A DNA stretch of 64,000 nt from contig JABFGG010000021.1 of assembly GCA_013112575.1 (NCBI GenBank), positions 1 through 64,000 of the forward strand. The letters run 5' to 3'. Position numbers and translations under genes: made by a program. The notes beneath the pieces were generated by a model that saw nothing but the letters and a program-made list of their open reading frames with translations, did not search any database and was not told where the DNA came from. This stretch comes from Chloroflexota bacterium (GTDB lineage: Bacteria; Chloroflexota; Anaerolineae; Anaerolineales; UBA11579). Below, in pieces: positions 1,876-11,152 of the stretch. How positions within the stretch are numbered: position 1 is the stretch's first letter; each line of letters opens with the position of its first letter.

Positions 1876-1955
1876 TTCTTGGCTTTGATTGTATCGACCC
1901 TATTGATTTTGCGGTAAACTTATTATCTAGATATTCTCATAGGAGGAGAATCCTT

Positions 1956-3098
1956 ATGCGAAGACTTTTGACAATTCTTGTTGCAGTATGGGTGATCGGC
2001 TCGATTATCCTGGCTGCCTGTGGTACGCCCGTTCCCGCTGTGCCGCAAGGGCCACCCGATGTGAGTGGTGGCGACGTTGACCTGCCGGATGTGGATGTAC
2101 CGGATGTAGAGGTTCCTGATGTTGAGGTTCCAGCAGTCGGGGATGGTGGTGATGACGGAGAGGGTGTTCCCAGCGTATGTGAGGTGACGGACGTCGGTGG
2201 TATCGACGACAAGTCCTTCAACGCCACCGCCTGGGCAGGCCTGCAACGTGCCGAAGCCGATTTTGATGTTACCGTGGCTTTTCTTGAATCCCAGCAACAG
2301 ACCGACTACGAGGTCAACATCAATGCTTTCATCGAAGAAGGCTGTGACCTGGTCGTAGGTGTGGGCTTCTTGATGGGTGATGCGGTGGCCGCAGCTGCCG
2401 AAGCCAATCCCGATCAGAACTTTGCCATCATCGACTTTGCTTACGATCCGGCCTACGACAACGTGGCCGGCATCGTCTTTGGTATCGACCAGGCTGGTTT
2501 CCTGGCAGGCTATGCAGCCGCTGCTGCTACCCAGACAGGCACAGTCGGTACCTTCGGTGGTATCAACATCCCGCCCGTGACGCAGTTCATGGATGGCTAT
2601 GTGTATGGCGTGCGCTACTACAACGACCAGAATGGCACTGACGTGTCTGTGCTGGGCTGGGATCCTGAGGCTCAGGATGGCCTGTTCACAGGCAACTTCG
2701 AGAGCCTGGATGATGGCCGCACATTGGGCGAGAGCTTGATGGACGAAGGCGCCGACGTGATCATGCCTGTGGCTGGCCCTGTTGGCTTGGGCACGGCAGC
2801 AGCTATCCAAGAACGTGGTAACGCCTGGATCATCGGTGTGGACACGGACTGGACAGTCTCGGCCTCTGAGTATGCTGACATTGTGTTGACCTCGGTATTG
2901 AAGCGCATGGACTCGGTTTTGTACCTGATGGCTCGAGACGTGGCCAACGGTACTTACGCGACTGAGTTGTTCGTAGGCACCTTGGACAACGAGGGAGTAG
3001 GCATTGCCCCTGTGACCAACTTTGATGGAGACATCAGCGCTGAGTTGGCCGCCATTGTGGACGGCATCATCGCTGGCGACATCCAGACCGCTCCGTAG
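1956..3098 (+). CDS. BMP-family substrate-binding lipoprotein (first of tandem pair)
   Basis: A 380-residue lipoprotein of the BMP/PnrA-like family, the substrate-binding proteins of ABC importers for nucleosides and related ligands. The signal peptide ends in a lipobox with Cys22 (IILAAC). A spacer at about residues 30-65 consists of repeated PDVxV units plus an Asp/Gly stretch. The binding domain opens with ICEVTDVGGIDDKSFNA-like sequence and continues through typical BMP segments such as LESQQQTDYE, FAIIDFAYDP and GTFGGI. The ATG at 1956 has AGGAGGAG just upstream. No permease or ATPase gene lies nearby, so the transporter partner is elsewhere or absent. The next gene is a close paralogue. 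Confidence 0.9.
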   Translation: MRRLLTILVAVWVIGSIILAACGTPVPAVPQGPPDVSGGDVDLPDVDVPDVEVPDVEVPAVGDGGDDGEGVPSVCEVTDVGGIDDKSFNATAWAGLQRAEADFDVTVAFLESQQQTDYEVNINAFIEEGCDLVVGVGFLMGDAVAAAAEANPDQNFAIIDFAYDPAYDNVAGIVFGIDQAGFLAGYAAAAATQTGTVGTFGGINIPPVTQFMDGYVYGVRYYNDQNGTDVSVLGWDPEAQDGLFTGNFESLDDGRTLGESLMDEGADVIMPVAGPVGLGTAAAIQERGNAWIIGVDTDWTVSASEYADIVLTSVLKRMDSVLYLMARDVANGTYATELFVGTLDNEGVGIAPVTNFDGDISAELAAIVDGIIAGDIQTAP

Positions 3099-3124
3099 TC
3101 TCGAACGACCCTTTAGCAGTACCA

Positions 3125-3205: not shown

Positions 3206-4258
3206 ATGTATAAAAAACGCCACCTGATTTTGTTTGTCTTGTTTTTTAGTACCATCTTTTTGGCTGCGTGTGGCTCATCTGTAGCCCCGGATGAGGTTAT
3301 CCCATCAAATGAAGAGGAGGGTGCCTCTGCCAAGATCTGTGAAGTAACAGATGTTGGTGGTATTGACGATAAGTCATTTAATGCAACGGCTTGGGCGGGA
3401 GTGCAACAGGCTGCTGCCGATCTGGGCGTCGAGGGCCAGTTTCTCGAATCCCAGCAGCAAACCGACTACGAGGCCAACATAACAGCTTTTATGGATGAAG
3501 GTTGTGACCTTATTATTTCTATTGGCTTTTTATTGGGTGATGCAACCGAAGAGGCCGCTGAGAATAACCCCGACCAGAATTTTGCCATTATCGACTTCGC
3601 CTATGACCCGGGTTATGACAACGTTTTGGGCATCGTCTTTGCCACAGACCAGGCTGCCTTTCTGGCCGGTTACGCTGCCGCGGCTACTACCCAGACAGGC
3701 ATTGTTGGCACCTTTGGTGGTATCAAGATCCCCAGCGTAACGGTCTTTATGGATGGCTATGTGTATGGGGTAGAGTACTACAATCAACAGAACGACGCGG
3801 ATGTTGAGGTTCTTGGTTGGGAGCCAGGAGTCGAAGATGGCTTATTTGCAGGCAACTTTGAGAGCCTGGACGATGGCCGTACACTTGCAATCAGCTTGAT
3901 GAACGAAGGTGCAGATGTCATCATGCCTGTGGCTGGCCCGGTTGGGCTTGGCGCTGCCGCTGCTGTGCAGGAAAGTGGCGAGGCCTGGATCATCGGCGTT
4001 GATAGTGATTGGACCCAATCCTCTCCCGAGTATGCTGATGTTATTTTAACTTCTGTGCTCAAACGCTCAGACTCGGCCATTTATCAAATTACGGAAGAGC
4101 TTTTGGCCGGCGACTTCTCTGGTGGCCTTTACCTGGGTACCCTGAAGAATGACGGTGTCGGCATTGCACCGCTCACTAATTTTGACGGCAATATCGATGA
4201 TGAGCTTGCAGCACTTGTGGAAGATATCATTGCAGGTGACCTTCAAACTGCCCCCTAA
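3206..4258 (+). CDS. BMP-family substrate-binding lipoprotein (second of tandem pair)
   Basis: A 350-residue paralogue of the preceding lipoprotein. The signal peptide ends at a lipobox with Cys22 (IFLAAC). The binding domain aligns with the upstream protein almost without gaps, sharing EVTDVGGIDDKSFNATAWAG, MDGYVYGV, NFESLDDGRTL and IMPVAGPVGLG. It lacks the PDVxV repeat spacer, having a short acidic linker instead. The ATG at 3206 has GAGGATGG upstream. Its own terminator follows, and the upstream gene has one too, so the two are probably separate transcription units. Ligand differences cannot be read from sequence; purine nucleosides are the best-known ligands of the family. Confidence 0.9.
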   Translation: MYKKRHLILFVLFFSTIFLAACGSSVAPDEVIPSNEEEGASAKICEVTDVGGIDDKSFNATAWAGVQQAAADLGVEGQFLESQQQTDYEANITAFMDEGCDLIISIGFLLGDATEEAAENNPDQNFAIIDFAYDPGYDNVLGIVFATDQAAFLAGYAAAATTQTGIVGTFGGIKIPSVTVFMDGYVYGVEYYNQQNDADVEVLGWEPGVEDGLFAGNFESLDDGRTLAISLMNEGADVIMPVAGPVGLGAAAAVQESGEAWIIGVDSDWTQSSPEYADVILTSVLKRSDSAIYQITEELLAGDFSGGLYLGTLKNDGVGIAPLTNFDGNIDDELAALVEDIIAGDLQTAP

Positions 4259-4316: not shown

Positions 4317-4455
4317 CATTACATTGCTATTGGCCAGCCAAGTAAAACTTCATTAGAACTTTCAGGGGGCAAGCGTCGAAGCCATGTTTTCTCCAAATCC
4401 AGAGGCTAAACCTGTAACAAATTGGACTGCTTTTGCGTTATTTAGGTGAAATAGA

Positions 4456-5859
4456 GTGAATACTACAACCCAGATCCCCAACGTTGAGTTGGCGCAGCAG
4501 GCTGCTAAAGGTGACCAGGTTGCCTACACTGAGCTGTTCCACCAATATTTTCAGGCGGTCTACAACTACGCTCTGTCTCTCACCAGCGACCCGGCTGGCG
4601 CAGAGGACCTGACGCAGGATGCTTTCATCAAGGCGTATAACAACATTCATCGCCTGGGTCATCCGTGGAACTTCCGTACCTGGATCTTCCGCATGACACG
4701 CAATCTCTTCGTAGACCAACTGCGGGGCCAGCGAACTATCACTGGTTTGGATGAAGCGCGCCAAATGGCCGAAAATGAGACCCCTTTGGAAAAACAAAGC
4801 ATACGCTCAGAAAATGCGGATAGTGTGCGCCAAACCCTTGAGTTTTTGCCCACACAACATCGTGAGGCTTTGATGCTGCGTGAGTTCTATGCCATGCCTT
4901 ATGCTGAAATTGCAAGTGTCATGGAGATCAGCCAGTCCAATGTAAAAGTAGTTTTGCACCGTGCCCGTGCCAAATTCCAGGAAGCCTTTGGCCTCAAATT
5001 ATTACTGGATGAACCCACAGAAGACTGTGCCAGCCTGCACGAATTACTTACCGTTGTGCACGATGGCGAAGCCCAGGAAAATCAGCTTTCTTTTGTACAG
5101 AAACACCTGACCGGTTGTGATGCTTGCAAAGAACGTCAGAAACGCCTTGTCAAACTCACCGCACTTATGGGCTTGTTCACGCCTATTATCCCGCCTGCTG
5201 GCCTGGCTGAAAGCATCCTGGGTAAGATCGAGAAACTTGCCCCCGGTCCCAGCGGTCCTTCTCCACAAAGTCTCCTCCGTTGGACTATTTTGGGAGCCGC
5301 TGGTTTGGCTGTCCTCGTTCTTGTTGGCCTAGGGCTTACCAATGGAAGTACTGATCCAATTCCCGCCGATCAGGACACCATGCCTTATTCTGGTCAAGGT
5401 GGCATCCAGTTCACAACGGAAACAGCCACAGCGGAAGTTCTTGCCGATTTCTTTCCAGGCTTTACTGAAACCCCCTCCGCTACCGCTTCTTGTGAATACA
5501 CAGCCAAAGTCCCCTTGTTCTGCCGTCTCGGGCCTGGCCCCATTTACCCCTGGCTCGACACCTTTGAAGAGGGGCAATCATCCACCGTCATTGGCCGCAA
5601 TGCGGATGGCAGTTATCTGTATGTCCTGGGACTTTCAGATGGACAGCAATGTACAGTCCCAAATAACGAAGAATTTGGCTCAACCTCTGGCCCTTGTGAT
5701 AATCTGCCGCCTTTCACCGACCCTCTCACCCCTACAATCACCCTCACCGTCACCCCGGTACCCACCAAGACTCCCAATGATGATCCTGGAACGGGTGGCG
5801 GCGATCCTAGCTGTACACCGCGAGTCACTTTCGCGGGTGTCCCTATCCCCTGCCCTTAG
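4456..5859 (+). CDS. Membrane-tethered ECF sigma factor with zinc finger, TM helix and SH3-like ectodomain
   Basis: A 467-residue protein combining parts that are usually separate. Residues 20-92 match sigma region 2 (GAEDLTQDAFIKAY, TWIFRMTRNLFVDQLR). Residues 122-176 match region 4 (LPTQHREALMLREFYAMPYAEI). Residues 190-235 resemble the anti-sigma zinc finger, with Cys191, His217, Cys221 and Cys224. A single TM helix spans about 274-296. The outside part has a Thr/Ser-rich linker and a Cys-bounded SH3-like domain at about 346-410, then a Pro/Thr-rich tail with a Cys-Pro end. The start is GTG with AGGTGA upstream. It heads a three-gene operon, and the lipoprotein downstream carries a homologous ectodomain. 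The sigma part is presumably held at the membrane and freed by proteolysis or signal; that is inference. Confidence 0.85.
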   Translation: MNTTTQIPNVELAQQAAKGDQVAYTELFHQYFQAVYNYALSLTSDPAGAEDLTQDAFIKAYNNIHRLGHPWNFRTWIFRMTRNLFVDQLRGQRTITGLDEARQMAENETPLEKQSIRSENADSVRQTLEFLPTQHREALMLREFYAMPYAEIASVMEISQSNVKVVLHRARAKFQEAFGLKLLLDEPTEDCASLHELLTVVHDGEAQENQLSFVQKHLTGCDACKERQKRLVKLTALMGLFTPIIPPAGLAESILGKIEKLAPGPSGPSPQSLLRWTILGAAGLAVLVLVGLGLTNGSTDPIPADQDTMPYSGQGGIQFTTETATAEVLADFFPGFTETPSATASCEYTAKVPLFCRLGPGPIYPWLDTFEEGQSSTVIGRNADGSYLYVLGLSDGQQCTVPNNEEFGSTSGPCDNLPPFTDPLTPTITLTVTPVPTKTPNDDPGTGGGDPSCTPRVTFAGVPIPCP

Positions 5860-5927
5860 CCCAGTACCAAACTACTAGTAACTTTTTCAACTGAATAAGC
5901 GTTGTTTTGCAGAAGGAGGCTCAACTT

Positions 5928-8543
5928 ATGAGCAATACATTTAAGCTATTCCTACTTTTTGCTTTCGGCATGGTCGGGGTTATCGTTATCGCTATGATTG
6001 GCTTTGGCGTGATCCGTTACCAACGTTTTCAAGCCACTGGGGACGATCTCCCCGCTCAAACCACACTTACTCAGGTCGCTATCTCTAATCTAAGCAATGG
6101 TGACGAAGCTCAGATTGGGCATCCCTTATTCATCGAAGGTTATGCTGCTGGGCCTACTGCTTTCTTATCCCTCGAACTGTGGATCGATGGTCAGCTTGCC
6201 ACTGTCCAGTCTGCTTATGCAGCGGGGAGCAGCCCCTTTGAAACCAGCTTCAGGTGGTTACCGGATACCCCCGGTGCGCATTCCCTTGTGCTGCGCGCCG
6301 TCGATGAATTGCAACAAACTACCAATTCAACTCCGGTAATAGTGGTGGTTCCCGAGCAGGCGGTTGGTGAAACCAATGACGTTGCTGGTTTTTCCGGTAG
6401 TGGAGAGGAAGATGTGCCTGTAGTATTTCCTGCTGGGGGCGGAGGCAGCAGCTACTCTATCCCTGCTCCTTCTGCGGATGATAGTCTTGGCGATGCTGCA
6501 GACTGGTCCCCGTCAGTTGGTGGCTGGGTTGACAACATCACCAATTCAGATCAACCCCCCACCGCTCCCGAGCTGGCTGCCACAGCCGGGCAGTGCAGCT
6601 CCAATCTTTCAATCCATGACCTCTCTGATAACGAACTTGGTTTCAAGGTTCTGCGCTACCTGCCCTCATTTGACCAATGGGTTGAAGTAGCTACGCTTGG
6701 TGCACAATCCCAAAATGATTGGCTGATATATACCGATGCTGGGATTTCCGGCGCTTTACAGTACCAGGTAGTGGCCTTTAACCAGGCAGGCAATTCTGCC
6801 AGCAATGTTGTACCGGTCAATGTGGATCCGGCCAATTGCCCGGATATTCAGGCAGAGTTGGGTGTGGTTGACTTAACACTACAGAGCCTGGGGACGCAGT
6901 TCCCCAGGGACATGGCCTATTGTTATCGTTCCTTTGACGGTGGGGTTGATTGGGAACGCTGGCCGGCCTCCGGCTTTTTCTACCCGAACGAAGATGGGGA
7001 ACTGGATGTAGTTGTTCAGAGCTCCTGGCTGTTTAACACGCTTGGCGAACGTGCCGTTGAAACCTTCGACCTTAAATTAGACTGCTGGGGCTGGAGTGGG
7101 AACCAATTGAGTAGCTTGGGCCAATATGAGATCACGGATGTTGATCCCTTGCAAGCCGGTCTCTATCCTCTGGGCTCGGGCGATTCCTCGATTACGCTTG
7201 GTGTGTGGCCTGGAAACCAATTGGAGCAGACTGTTTTCTATCCCCTTAACAACCATGAAGGGCAACTGCAATACGCAGAGAATCAGCCCGATGGTTTCAC
7301 CAGCGTCCTCTCTGCAATCCCCCCTGAAGAACGCGAGATGCCCGGCATTATTTTGAGCGCTACAGACAATGCCGATATTTGCGAAGATCATTTATCTCCC
7401 GAGAGTCGCAATCTTGTGGGTCGCATTCTATTCTGTTTCCCATATCAAGGGTTTGACTCTGAAGAGACTGGGGGGGAACAAGGTGTCAATACACAGCAAT
7501 ACCTGGTTTGGGACTTTGACCTCAACGGTTGCCGGGCTGCCATCTATGATCCTGGCGCATGCAAATCCTATGAGTACTATCTGGAGCAAGCCGAATTGAC
7601 CGAGGGCCAGGTCGGCTTTTGGATCAACGATTCCGCAAGCCAGAACCAACATGCCCAGAACGCACCCGGCTTTACACAGTTCGTCATTCCCCCGCTCAGT
7701 TGTGCTTCTCAACAGCGCACCTTTAGCGTGCAAATGTGGTATCAACCCGGCCCCAAATCCCTTGACCCTGAGTTCATCCAGGTTGGGGAAGCAGGCCCGG
7801 GCAATGTCTTTGGCCCGATCGATGAGGACAATCAGATCCTAACCGCGGGGTTAGGTCCTGAAGATTACATTATTTCTAAATTGTACTTTGTGGGCCCTCT
7901 CAGCAACGAAGTCACTATTCCCTGCCCAGAGCCGCTGGGTGACAATGTGAAAATTGAGATCACGTTCAACACTATGGAGCTAAGCAATATTGACGATGGG
8001 GAAGATGTGGATGAACTTGAAATCTACGGATATTTTTTGGCGGAGCCTCATTCTACACTCTCTGATGACCCTACCTACCTGAATATCGCTACCTGGCAGT
8101 CTCAGCACGAAGACTGCCCTGATGATACAGGACCGATAGGAGAATTTGAACAAGATCTCGCCGGCAATGCCGCGGATGGTTGTCCCCACGAAGTTTTTGG
8201 CGGCACCTACGGAATCTGGGAATTGTACGCCTGCGACTCTGCTTTTCATGACAAATGTGCCTCAAAAATTGGGCATTCACTGCAAAATCCCTCTCCTGGC
8301 TTTGTAATCGGTAATGACAACCTGGTCATCAACATCGGCGATGGCGACAGTATAGATCTCCATGTCGAGTTCTGGGACTATGACGAGGCCTCTGCTGATG
8401 ATCTGCTGTGTGTAGGGCATGTCAATTTTGAGGCCCGCAATATCTTCCAATGGGCTGTAGTGGATGAGACCAGTGCCTTTGTAGCGCCCACTCAGAGCAG
8501 TGGCAATTGTTCTATCAGTTTCACAGTTCAGGCAGTGCCCTGA
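5928..8543 (+). CDS. Large anchored surface protein with Ig/Fn3-like domains
   Basis: An 871-residue protein with one N-terminal hydrophobic helix (about residues 5-27) and the rest predicted outside the cell. The first outside segment (about 50-140) looks like an Ig-like repeat also present in the downstream lipoprotein. A region around 225-300 begins at a Cys and has the hydrophobic pattern of a fibronectin type III-like domain. The remainder is acidic, Cys-containing and not recognised. The ATG at 5928 has AGAAGGAGG at 5911-5919, so the longer frame from 5907 was not used. It lies between the tethered sigma factor and the lipoprotein, in the same direction. It may be a surface or envelope-stress component controlled by that sigma factor. 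Function is unknown. Confidence 0.75.
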   Translation: MSNTFKLFLLFAFGMVGVIVIAMIGFGVIRYQRFQATGDDLPAQTTLTQVAISNLSNGDEAQIGHPLFIEGYAAGPTAFLSLELWIDGQLATVQSAYAAGSSPFETSFRWLPDTPGAHSLVLRAVDELQQTTNSTPVIVVVPEQAVGETNDVAGFSGSGEEDVPVVFPAGGGGSSYSIPAPSADDSLGDAADWSPSVGGWVDNITNSDQPPTAPELAATAGQCSSNLSIHDLSDNELGFKVLRYLPSFDQWVEVATLGAQSQNDWLIYTDAGISGALQYQVVAFNQAGNSASNVVPVNVDPANCPDIQAELGVVDLTLQSLGTQFPRDMAYCYRSFDGGVDWERWPASGFFYPNEDGELDVVVQSSWLFNTLGERAVETFDLKLDCWGWSGNQLSSLGQYEITDVDPLQAGLYPLGSGDSSITLGVWPGNQLEQTVFYPLNNHEGQLQYAENQPDGFTSVLSAIPPEEREMPGIILSATDNADICEDHLSPESRNLVGRILFCFPYQGFDSEETGGEQGVNTQQYLVWDFDLNGCRAAIYDPGACKSYEYYLEQAELTEGQVGFWINDSASQNQHAQNAPGFTQFVIPPLSCASQQRTFSVQMWYQPGPKSLDPEFIQVGEAGPGNVFGPIDEDNQILTAGLGPEDYIISKLYFVGPLSNEVTIPCPEPLGDNVKIEITFNTMELSNIDDGEDVDELEIYGYFLAEPHSTLSDDPTYLNIATWQSQHEDCPDDTGPIGEFEQDLAGNAADGCPHEVFGGTYGIWELYACDSAFHDKCASKIGHSLQNPSPGFVIGNDNLVINIGDGDSIDLHVEFWDYDEASADDLLCVGHVNFEARNIFQWAVVDETSAFVAPTQSSGNCSISFTVQAVP

Positions 8544-8557
8544 TGTGGAGGTACATC

Positions 8558-9394
8558 ATGAAAACTAAAACAACATCCTTGATTACTTTGTTGCTCGGCC
8601 TGCTCATCTCGGCCTGCAATGGTGCAACCGCCACTCCCACGCCTGGCCCTCAGGTTCAGGCATGGATCGACGCGCCTTTGCCCAATTCAACCGTTCCTCT
8701 AGCGACCTATCAGCTTGTTTTTCACGGCACCAGTTTTAATGGTGTCGACGAATTCGAGGTCAGTGTCAACGGTCAGGTGGACGGTGCGGTTCCCCCCCTG
8801 GCCACAGGCTCTGGCGGCTCGCAGCAGGGCACTTTGTTTTATGGTGAATACCCCTGGATGCCCCCTGCTCCGGGTACCTACCTCATCTCGGTGCGTGCGA
8901 AAGACGGCCAGGAGCAATTTGGTCCGCCCGCTGAGGTGCAGGTGCAGGTTGGTGATGTGCTTGCTGAAGTAGGTGATGAACCCCCGCTCGTCCAACCGGG
9001 CCCCACCACGACTCCTGAGCTTGCCGCTTCTTGTACCTACACCGCCGTGGTCAACCTCTTCTGCCGCACAGGCCCCGGCCAGGTCTATCCCGAGCTGGAT
9101 AGCTTCGTGCCGGATGACATGGCTGATGTCATTGGTATCAGTCCCGATGGCAGCCACGTGCAGGTCTTGGGCCCCAACTTCGGAGAAGCTTGTTTCGTGC
9201 CAATCGAGGAACGTTTTGGCCTGTTGGATGGCACTTGCGATGACCTCGAAGTCGTCTCTATCCCGCCCACACCGACTCCGACCCTTACACCAACCCCGGA
9301 GCCCGCAGATCCTACCAGCACACCGCCTCCGCCGCAACCAACGCCCACAGCCACTTGTAATCCATTAAATATCCAGGGTGCTGGCTGTCCCTAA
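8558..9394 (+). CDS. Lipoprotein with Ig-like and Cys-bounded SH3-like domains
   Basis: A 278-residue lipoprotein with lipobox Cys20 (LLISAC). An Ig-like segment (about 30-125) is similar in layout to the start of the upstream large protein. After a Thr/Pro linker comes a domain clearly homologous to the ectodomain of the tethered sigma factor. Both share the pattern C-Y-TA-V-LFCR-GPG-YP-LD-F, then VIG, DGS, VLG, a Cys before VP, and G-x-C. Both proteins also end in a Thr/Pro tail capped by Cys, about 10-14 residues and a terminal Cys-Pro. The ATG at 8558 follows GGAGG. This is the last gene of the operon, followed by a strong terminator. The shared domain suggests common ligand binding or signalling to the sigma factor. 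Confidence 0.8.
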   Translation: MKTKTTSLITLLLGLLISACNGATATPTPGPQVQAWIDAPLPNSTVPLATYQLVFHGTSFNGVDEFEVSVNGQVDGAVPPLATGSGGSQQGTLFYGEYPWMPPAPGTYLISVRAKDGQEQFGPPAEVQVQVGDVLAEVGDEPPLVQPGPTTTPELAASCTYTAVVNLFCRTGPGQVYPELDSFVPDDMADVIGISPDGSHVQVLGPNFGEACFVPIEERFGLLDGTCDDLEVVSIPPTPTPTLTPTPEPADPTSTPPPPQPTPTATCNPLNIQGAGCP

Positions 9395-9469: not shown

Positions 9470-11032
9470 CTAAGGCCTGCCACCTCCCGCTGGTGGCTGT
9501 TGCCCGCCATTGGGCCTACCACCTTCAGGCACACATGCCAGTTCGCTTTGGATATTTGTGCAGGTCCCATCCAGCGTTCCGTTTGGCGTGTTTATAGTAC
9601 AGGCCGCACCTGTGCTTGATCCCACACAAGCATTGATCGCTTCTTGGGGTGGTTCGCCGCCGATACCGGCTTGTCTGTTATCTCCCACAGGTGGCAAAGT
9701 GCTGTCGTTTATGCTGGAGTCAATCTCGCCACTCACCACGACATCGCCACTCGTCCCACCCTGCACACAGCGTACGTAGTTTTCGATGCGGATGGCATCA
9801 CCTTGCGGGCCATGTCCGGTGGGGTAGTTGGCTGCGTCACCGCTCTTTGGGTCACTGCGTTGGGCTCCTGCCCCGTGCACGTCCATCCAGGTACCATTCA
9901 TGTAGCCCATTGACCGTCCAAAGTTTACGTAGGCTGCATTCATCCCTCCACGCCGATTAGCGTGCGTGGTGCTGCTCCAGTAGGCCGGATAATCCGTTTG
10001 TCCGGCTTCGTTGGTGATGCTGCTCACACCGAACAACGGGTCAATCGCCGCCGAGTTGCTCGTATCCGGCGAACGGCTGTAATCTACAATACTTTGTAAT
10101 TCTTTGGCATTGGGTAGTCGCCAGTCATCGTAGCCCGCATAGTCCAGGTTTTCGCAATAATTGAGTGCCTCTTCCCAGTCCATGCCGCTACCATTGTCAT
10201 CCTGCATCCAGGTCAGGCCTGTCGCCGCATCCGTGATCGTGCCGTTTCCATTGTTTATAAAGTCATTCTCACCATACTCGCTATTGCCTCGCACGTACAG
10301 TACGAAGAAGCCTTTTCCTTCGGACTGCCCCCGCATCGCTTCTGTGCCGTATCCCTTGATACGCCCATCGGCGAAGTTCACCCCGAATACAGTCCGCGCG
10401 CCGTTCATGGTTGTGCTTACGTATTCCGTGCTGGAAATGAATTGGGAGTCGATGATGCGCTCGCCATCGCTCTCATCACCATACTCAAAAACGAAATAAT
10501 CCGTATCAATGAAAGGCACCAGGCTCGAAGCATCCGGCCCACTGGGATCGTATCCGCTGAACAGGATCAGCGAATACAGTTCTTTGATGGTTGGTAAGCG
10601 CCAATCGTCATAGCCTGCCAGGCTGAAGTTGTCAGCTCCTGCCACGGCCTCTGAGTAGGTCATCTTCTCACCGGGGTCTTGCTGCCACATTAAACCGGTC
10701 ACCAGATCAGCTACGGTCCCATCGCCATTATCAACGTAGCTGGGCTGGTTGCCGCTGTATTGGGCATCCTGTCCAAAGAAACCTTCCCCCTCCGTTGGGC
10801 AGGCTACACTTGCTCCATCGTCGTAACAATATATCTGGCCGCTATCCACGATTGGATAAGCCAGGCCGGAACTTTGCATAGGTTTTGAGTTTGTAGTACC
10901 ACTCGTCTCTGATACCAATGCTTCCACCTGGACAGCTTCAAATGAACTCGCAGCCTCACTAGTGGCTGCGGTGGTGGTACAAGCCACCATCACAAAGACC
11001 AAAGCCCAAATAGCATTCTTGTAGTTTTTCAT
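9470..11032 (-). CDS. DUF1566 (Lcl-type) lipoprotein with two repeats
   Basis: A 520-residue secreted lipoprotein; Cys18 lies in a lipobox-like VMVAC. Two copies of the DUF1566/Lcl C-terminal domain are visible. Each begins with a NGxGT-D--TGL-W-Q motif and includes AGYDDWRLP followed by KEL. The domain occurs in surface and collagen-like proteins of diverse bacteria; its ligand is not known. The C-terminal 80 residues are Cys-containing and Gly/Pro-rich. The ATG at 11032 has AAAGGAAA upstream and was preferred to the longer frame from 11107, whose extra residues do not look like a signal peptide. It is a single-gene unit facing away from the Cys-rich mini-gene. Confidence 0.8.
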   Translation of the reverse strand: MKNYKNAIWALVFVMVACTTTAATSEAASSFEAVQVEALVSETSGTTNSKPMQSSGLAYPIVDSGQIYCYDDGASVACPTEGEGFFGQDAQYSGNQPSYVDNGDGTVADLVTGLMWQQDPGEKMTYSEAVAGADNFSLAGYDDWRLPTIKELYSLILFSGYDPSGPDASSLVPFIDTDYFVFEYGDESDGERIIDSQFISSTEYVSTTMNGARTVFGVNFADGRIKGYGTEAMRGQSEGKGFFVLYVRGNSEYGENDFINNGNGTITDAATGLTWMQDDNGSGMDWEEALNYCENLDYAGYDDWRLPNAKELQSIVDYSRSPDTSNSAAIDPLFGVSSITNEAGQTDYPAYWSSTTHANRRGGMNAAYVNFGRSMGYMNGTWMDVHGAGAQRSDPKSGDAANYPTGHGPQGDAIRIENYVRCVQGGTSGDVVVSGEIDSSINDSTLPPVGDNRQAGIGGEPPQEAINACVGSSTGAACTINTPNGTLDGTCTNIQSELACVPEGGRPNGGQQPPAGGGRP

Positions 11033-11152
11033 CGTATATTTCCTTTCACTTTCATTTGTAGCCATCCTACAAATGGGATGTGAAGAAAGTGTGTAGGAGA
11101 TATTCATGTTGGGTAACGGACAATTCAGACCTTACATATCGTCAAATCGACG

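Follow-up and report, generated by a model that had tools for sequence, protein, structure and literature searches.

A Chloroflexota family of single-chain ECF sigma/anti-sigma proteins with exchangeable outside domains often mirrored by neighboring exported proteins

Introduction

Membrane proteins in which an ECF sigma factor, a zinc finger, a transmembrane (TM) helix, a Pro-rich stretch, and an outside domain form one chain are known from Actinobacteria as ECF52 (SCO4117), ECF53, and ECF48, and their release by proteolysis has been proposed; ECF52 is described as exclusive to Actinobacteria, with a carbohydrate-binding module in its outside part (PMC5826349, PMC8999054). In IutY of Pseudomonas putida (ECF243), a sigma factor fused to a membrane anti-sigma part, cleavage by Prc and RseP has been shown to activate the protein (PMC8999054), which provides a precedent for proteolytic release. 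A precedent for a sensor that resembles the regulated enzymes comes from Clostridium thermocellum, in which RsgI6 has a GH10 domain and sigmaI6 drives GH10 xylanases (PMC4711584); SigI/RsgI signaling includes RseP and ClpXP steps (PMC12203970).

We analyzed a 64-kb stretch of DNA (hereafter, the window) from a Chloroflexota genome of 5.1 Mb in 44 contigs, and found a protein that shares the single-chain architecture of ECF52, ECF53, and ECF48. We rejected membership in ECF52 since, despite the similar architecture, both the taxon (Chloroflexota) and the sensor domain (SH3-like) differ, and the family to which the window protein belongs carries SH3, NBR1-Ig, SdrD_B, and other sensors instead of a carbohydrate-binding module. 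The fusion of a sigma factor to a membrane anti-sigma part is common to IutY, but IutY serves iron-starvation signaling with an outer-membrane receptor and has no mirrored surface protein next door; the ORFs and Pfam hits beside the window sigma gene include neither a TonB-type receptor nor a siderophore gene, and thus the context is not that of IutY. As in SigI/RsgI, there are several paralogs with different sensors, and the outside sensor resembles exported proteins under actual or predicted control. However, SigI and RsgI are two separate proteins, sigmaI is not an ECF sigma factor, the anti-sigma domain is of another kind, and the regulated genes are not shown to adjoin, whereas the mirrored partners of the fused family do. 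The window protein also has an ordinary region 4, not a SigI-C domain, and hence does not belong to SigI/RsgI. The architecture is already known (ECF52/53, IutY), and what is new is the phylum, the exchangeable sensors mirrored by neighbors, and the predicted regulon. A mirrored neighbor, exchangeable sensors, and a sensor-like regulon are not described for ECF52, ECF53, or ECF48 in PMC5826349 and PMC8999054, and we found no description of a Chloroflexota fused-sigma family or of ECF neighbor mirroring in the open-licence literature.

Results and discussion

The fused protein (467 aa, GTG start) is encoded at window positions 4456..5859 on the + strand, as are all features given below unless stated otherwise. 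Sigma region 2 (residues 27-93, 4534..4734; PF04542 (Sigma70_r2), 2e-16) and region 4 (residues 123-173, 4822..4974; PF08281 (Sigma70_r4_2), 1e-13) were both above the Pfam cut-off and region 3 is absent, which identifies an ECF sigma factor; the superfamily model TIGR02937 (NCBIfam) was also above cut-off. These regions are followed by an HC2 zinc anti-sigma domain (zf-HC2 match, residues 191-224, 5026..5127), a TM helix (residues about 277-295, 5284..5340; 19 residues averaging 2.23 on the Kyte-Doolittle scale), a Thr/Pro linker, a Cys-rich SH3-like ectodomain (residues 334-417, 5455..5706; recognized by its likeness to a lipoprotein domain and by its SH3 fold), and a C-terminal Cys...Cys-Pro tail. 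The zf-HC2 match was under the Pfam cut-off in the window protein (0.0015) and well over it in relatives. Its ligands, Cys191...His217-x3-Cys221-x2-Cys224, are invariant among 10 aligned family members, and the class I (ASDI/ZAS) motif Hx3Cx2C, HLTGCDAC in the window protein, is present in all 28 fused proteins. The coordinates and the single-chain architecture (ECF sigma, zinc finger, TM, and SH3-like outside domain) given in an earlier note on this DNA are confirmed.

An AlphaFold2 model of residues 2-299 (18 alignment rows; pLDDT 79, pTM 0.64) was nearest in Foldseek to SigW/RsiW and CnrH/CnrY, in which an anti-sigma factor keeps the sigma factor folded up, and less near to extended RNAP-bound shapes; it fits sequestration in cis, for which it is weak evidence, as AlphaFold2 tends towards compact forms. 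In these closest solved structures, the anti-sigma factor is a protein of its own, and it has no large outside domain of which a neighbor carries a copy. The ectodomain was modeled as an SH3-type barrel (pLDDT 91) matching SH3 structures and, among bacterial SH3b ones, 4krt and 3pvq (query TM 0.62-0.64), with lysostaphin and endolysin SH3b among the fold matches. PF08239 (SH3_3) matched 17 of the 28 family members (best 2e-13), but not the window ectodomain itself in the Pfam profile search. The matches in relatives and the predicted fold support the SH3-like outside domain that the earlier note had proposed.

The same ectodomain recurs at the locus. The last gene (8558..9394) encodes a lipoprotein with the lipobox LISAC, an Ig-like domain, an SH3-like domain, and a Cys...Cys-Pro tail like that of the sigma protein, and its C-terminal domain (8996..9247) is 52% identical to the sigma ectodomain (E=2e-21), confirming the homologous outside domain and the similar Cys-capped tail reported earlier. 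The source genome contains about 23 copies of the SH3-like domain, and the lipoprotein, 3.5 kb off, was the top match to the sigma ectodomain; this genome-wide rank, together with the random-window control below, led us to reject the possibility that two SH3 domains of a common kind look alike by chance. At least six SH3-like lipoprotein genes (~250-313 aa) stand in tandem without the promoter element described below (L220, G000 contig C5, 118-132 kb).

Between the sigma and lipoprotein genes lies a gene for a membrane-anchored exported protein with Ig-like parts (5928..8543, about 871 aa), which has homologs in L067, G006, G010, and L181 and matched no Pfam or NCBIfam family. Judging from ribosome-binding sites, the likely start codons of this gene and of the lipoprotein gene are ATG 5928 and ATG 8558, respectively. 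Because a promoter-like element (5877-5905) separates the sigma gene from the other two, these may be two transcription units. The co-conserved three-gene operon of the earlier note is not obligate, and we rejected a strictly conserved one: the downstream pair occurs without the sigma gene in G006, G010, and a paralogous module on contig C3 of the source genome (L067), and fused sigma factors at other loci are paired with other partners. Directly upstream of the sigma locus are tandem genes for Bmp/PnrA-type substrate-binding lipoproteins (1953-3098 and 3206-4258), each followed by a terminator-like hairpin (near 3121 and 4276, mutually similar). The product of a convergent gene (9470-11107, - strand) contains two stretches that match Lcl_C (PF07603).

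Profile searches of whole genomes showed how such proteins are distributed: hits came from 13 of 396 genomes in the class, 10 of 48 in one order, and 14 of 300 in a second order. We read 28 fused sigma proteins in Chloroflexota, two further ones being in the source genome (contigs C6 and C3). These two paralogs are full length and share 41-42% identity with the window protein from the sigma regions through the zinc domain and TM helix; their ectodomains differ from that of the window protein, and each is matched by a neighbor. The C6 ectodomain (residue 343 on) matches a neighboring 1155-aa secreted protein (1e-12), and only three other copies of its domain exist in the source genome, one of them in this neighbor. 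The C3 ectodomain matches two neighboring lipoproteins, one of 736 aa (4e-15) and one of 718 aa (2e-12), the former of which is its best non-self match genome-wide.

When mirroring was defined as a match of the ectodomain to an exported neighbor at its own locus (E<0.01, low complexity masked), 12 of the 17 testable loci showed it: the window, C6, C3, G116, G160, G027, G1010, G909, G871, G831, G912, and G844. The remaining five (G426, G779, G866, G832, and G882) had no mirrored neighbor. Most of the relatives' genomes are fragmented assemblies, and the count covers neither the ten loci that a contig end truncates on the side in question (G005, G049, G421, G406, G287, G326, G819, G801, G856, and G782) nor G223, which has no folded ectodomain. 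Among 340 ORFs from 20 random 20-kb windows of the source genome, its three ectodomains had zero matches, and all ectodomains together had one weak match (G844, 0.002); drawn from one genome, this control is exact for the three ectodomains of that genome and approximate for the others. The earlier note had pointed to the shared ectodomain and had suggested that signal capture and transcription may be joined in one chain. The single chain is supported by the architecture, and a meaning of the shared ectodomain by the recurrence of the same pairing with different domains in these 12 loci.

The ectodomains belong to at least six types (SH3, NBR1-Ig (PF16158), SdrD_B (PF17210), Ig/FN3, C6 type, and Cys-rich). 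On the sigma tree, which has three well-supported clades, they require at least seven changes, indicating repeated exchange of sensors. G426 presents a mismatched pair: its sigma factor has an Ig/FN3 sensor, but the lipoproteins encoded downstream (L100:4079-6964 (-)) bear the NBR1-type domains of the G116 and G160 sigma factors, which looks like an exchange of sensor and partner in separate events.

Mirroring could also result if the ectodomain were a common wall- or surface-binding module that passively co-locates the sigma protein and its partner; the signal would then enter via the TM helix, the linker, or the zinc site, and the likeness to neighbors would reflect local duplication. SH3b domains commonly bind cell walls, and the abundance of SH3-like domains in the genome and the lysostaphin and endolysin fold matches are in line with such an anchor. 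However, several unrelated ectodomains, with NBR1-Ig, SdrD_B, and the rare C6 type among them, have mirrored copies or replace one another at the same position, and the partner genes carry the sigma-type promoter element, and we consider this reading unlikely, though it is the strongest competitor. A little less likely still is that the ectodomain mimics the partner and competes for an envelope assembly factor, a protease, or a binding partner, so that an unassembled or missing partner, rather than an outside ligand, is the signal. The high identity of some copies (92% over 105 aa between the G116 ectodomain and its neighbor) would suit such mimicry, as would the Cys...Cys-Pro tails, which match within the window pair and within the C3 pair and suggest handling by the same machinery; conversely, copies are only about 30% identical in several mirrored pairs, and no candidate assembly factor is conserved alongside.

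An ECF-type promoter element, TGTAAC-N17-CGTTAT, lies 5' of the sigma gene (4413..4441), predicting autoregulation; it is the single match to TGTAAC-N15-18-CGTTA in the 64 kb, against 0.05 expected. NNTAAC or TGTCAC followed by N17-CGTT was found directly upstream of 22 of 27 fused sigma genes, mostly ending 10-18 nt short of the start codon. With the -10 so near the start codon, as in the window (4413-4441), the predicted transcripts would be almost leaderless. Upstream of the C6 sigma gene, such an element was sought and not found. Together, the intact sigma domains and the conserved autoregulatory-type promoter argue for the window protein being a working sigma factor.

The predicted sigma-4 recognition helix of the window protein (EIASVMEISQSNVKVVLHRARAKF, 4906-4977) is of a class that agrees with its -35 class, as is the case over 22 genes, which are related by descent and hence do not represent 22 independent events. 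The helix NV[KR]V pairs with the -35 xGTAAC (12 genes, the window included), YVK with GATAAC (C3 and G005), and ARQ or NVRQ with TGTCAC (8 genes). The window and C3 paralogs, in one genome, differ in both helix and -35 class. In G1010, the helix PYVKT predicts GATAAC, and GATTAC-N17-CGTT, with one mismatch, was observed before the partner-sigma operon. Many ECF promoters resemble the NNTAAC-N17-CGTT element, and the helix/-35 agreement therefore outweighs the motif itself as evidence that fused sigma factors read their own promoters. That the fusion is a functionless assembly error or decayed sigma gene, two neighboring genes read as one, is very improbable, since it is kept in three supported clades with conserved zinc ligands and a conserved promoter whose -35 tracks the helix. 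In its favor, an anti-sigma gene usually comes right after its ECF gene, making read-through easy, and the two are separate, closely spaced ORFs in two of the 13 class genomes (G103 and G114).

The same element precedes partner genes. In the window, AGTAAC-N17-CGTTGT is located at 5877-5905, and the element was also found 5' of the L067 module (C3), the C6 partner, both C3 partners, the G116 and G160 partners, and neighbors in G831 and G866, as well as in stretches just before the contig end in G049, G421, and G782. It was not found upstream of the pairs that G006 and G010 carry without a sigma gene. In the source genome, KRTAAC-N17-CGTTAT occurs at 16 sites, compared with 2 for the reversed control; two of the 16 lie in front of fused sigma genes, and most of the remainder in front of genes for lipoproteins or secreted proteins. 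The sites include two more pairs of lipoprotein and large membrane-protein genes (L170 on C1 and L181 on C15), which lie behind GATAAC-N17-CGTTAT and are loosely homologous to the window partner genes. In nine relatives, this pattern was not enriched, being near or under the control level; the sole copy in G005 lies at the fused sigma gene of that genome.

The element preceded 0 of 340 random genes and 8 of 33 SH3-type genes, the latter proportion being inflated because some loci were fetched via the element; at least five genes found by the SH3-like domain alone have it directly in front. A regulon of all SH3 lipoproteins is not supported, as most of those in the source genome lack the element. 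The source genome has about 30 sigma-70-type regions, and since the element resembles generic ECF promoters, other sigma factors of this genome may use it.

We consider the window protein to be best explained as a single-chain ECF sigma/anti-sigma signaling protein that controls its partners and is released by proteolysis, with a probability of roughly 0.6. At the membrane, the zinc anti-sigma domain would keep the sigma domains inactive in cis, and the SH3-like ectodomain would sample the outside; the signal would most likely arise when a cell-surface ligand, one shared with the partner proteins, is bound or lost. It would trigger a first cut outside and a second one inside the membrane, for which an RseP-like M50 protease is the candidate, freeing the sigma part. 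M50 (site-2) proteases are encoded in the source genome, but also in 14 of 14 control genomes, and such near-universal presence says little about proteolytic release. The freed sigma part would transcribe its own gene from TGTAAC-N17-CGTT, and the partner operon from AGTAAC-N17-CGTTGT together with a dispersed set of surface-lipoprotein genes. Because the sensor and the products carry the same domain, the products could compete for the sensor's ligand and thereby close a feedback loop; the earlier note had suggested that the lipoprotein may compete or present ligand. Such shared binding could produce either induction by the ligand or negative feedback by the products. We are quite confident that the protein works as a membrane sigma switch that regulates its own gene and controls its partners, and somewhat less so, while still leaning towards it, once proteolytic release is added; the shared-ligand feedback step is put forward tentatively.

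If the mechanism is right, surface proteins under such control could be recognized from sequence alone, by proceeding from the ectodomain to its likeness and then to a promoter check, and functions could be assigned to many lipoproteins of uncultured Chloroflexota. It would also offer a supply of one-protein switches from outside to transcription with exchangeable sensors, and extend the sensor/regulon matching of cellulosomal SigI/RsgI to single-chain ECF sigma factors. The fused family is in itself a natural collection in which recognition helices can be compared with the -35 elements that go with them.

A wider rule, that Chloroflexota membrane sigma factors take as sensor a domain copy of the exported proteins they switch on, is conceivable, although we would not yet bet on it. 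If true, each switch would use the shared ligand to gauge how far its own products are occupied or how much of them is present. The rule may reach beyond the sigma/zinc/TM chassis, as a further case suggests: an ECF-TM-DUF5667 sigma factor without a zinc domain (L029:2303-3748 (-); G000 contig C7, about 21.0-23.7 kb) and its downstream neighbor (L029:1033-2061 (-)) both end in Asn/Gly-rich tails, as did 0 of 304 random ORFs.
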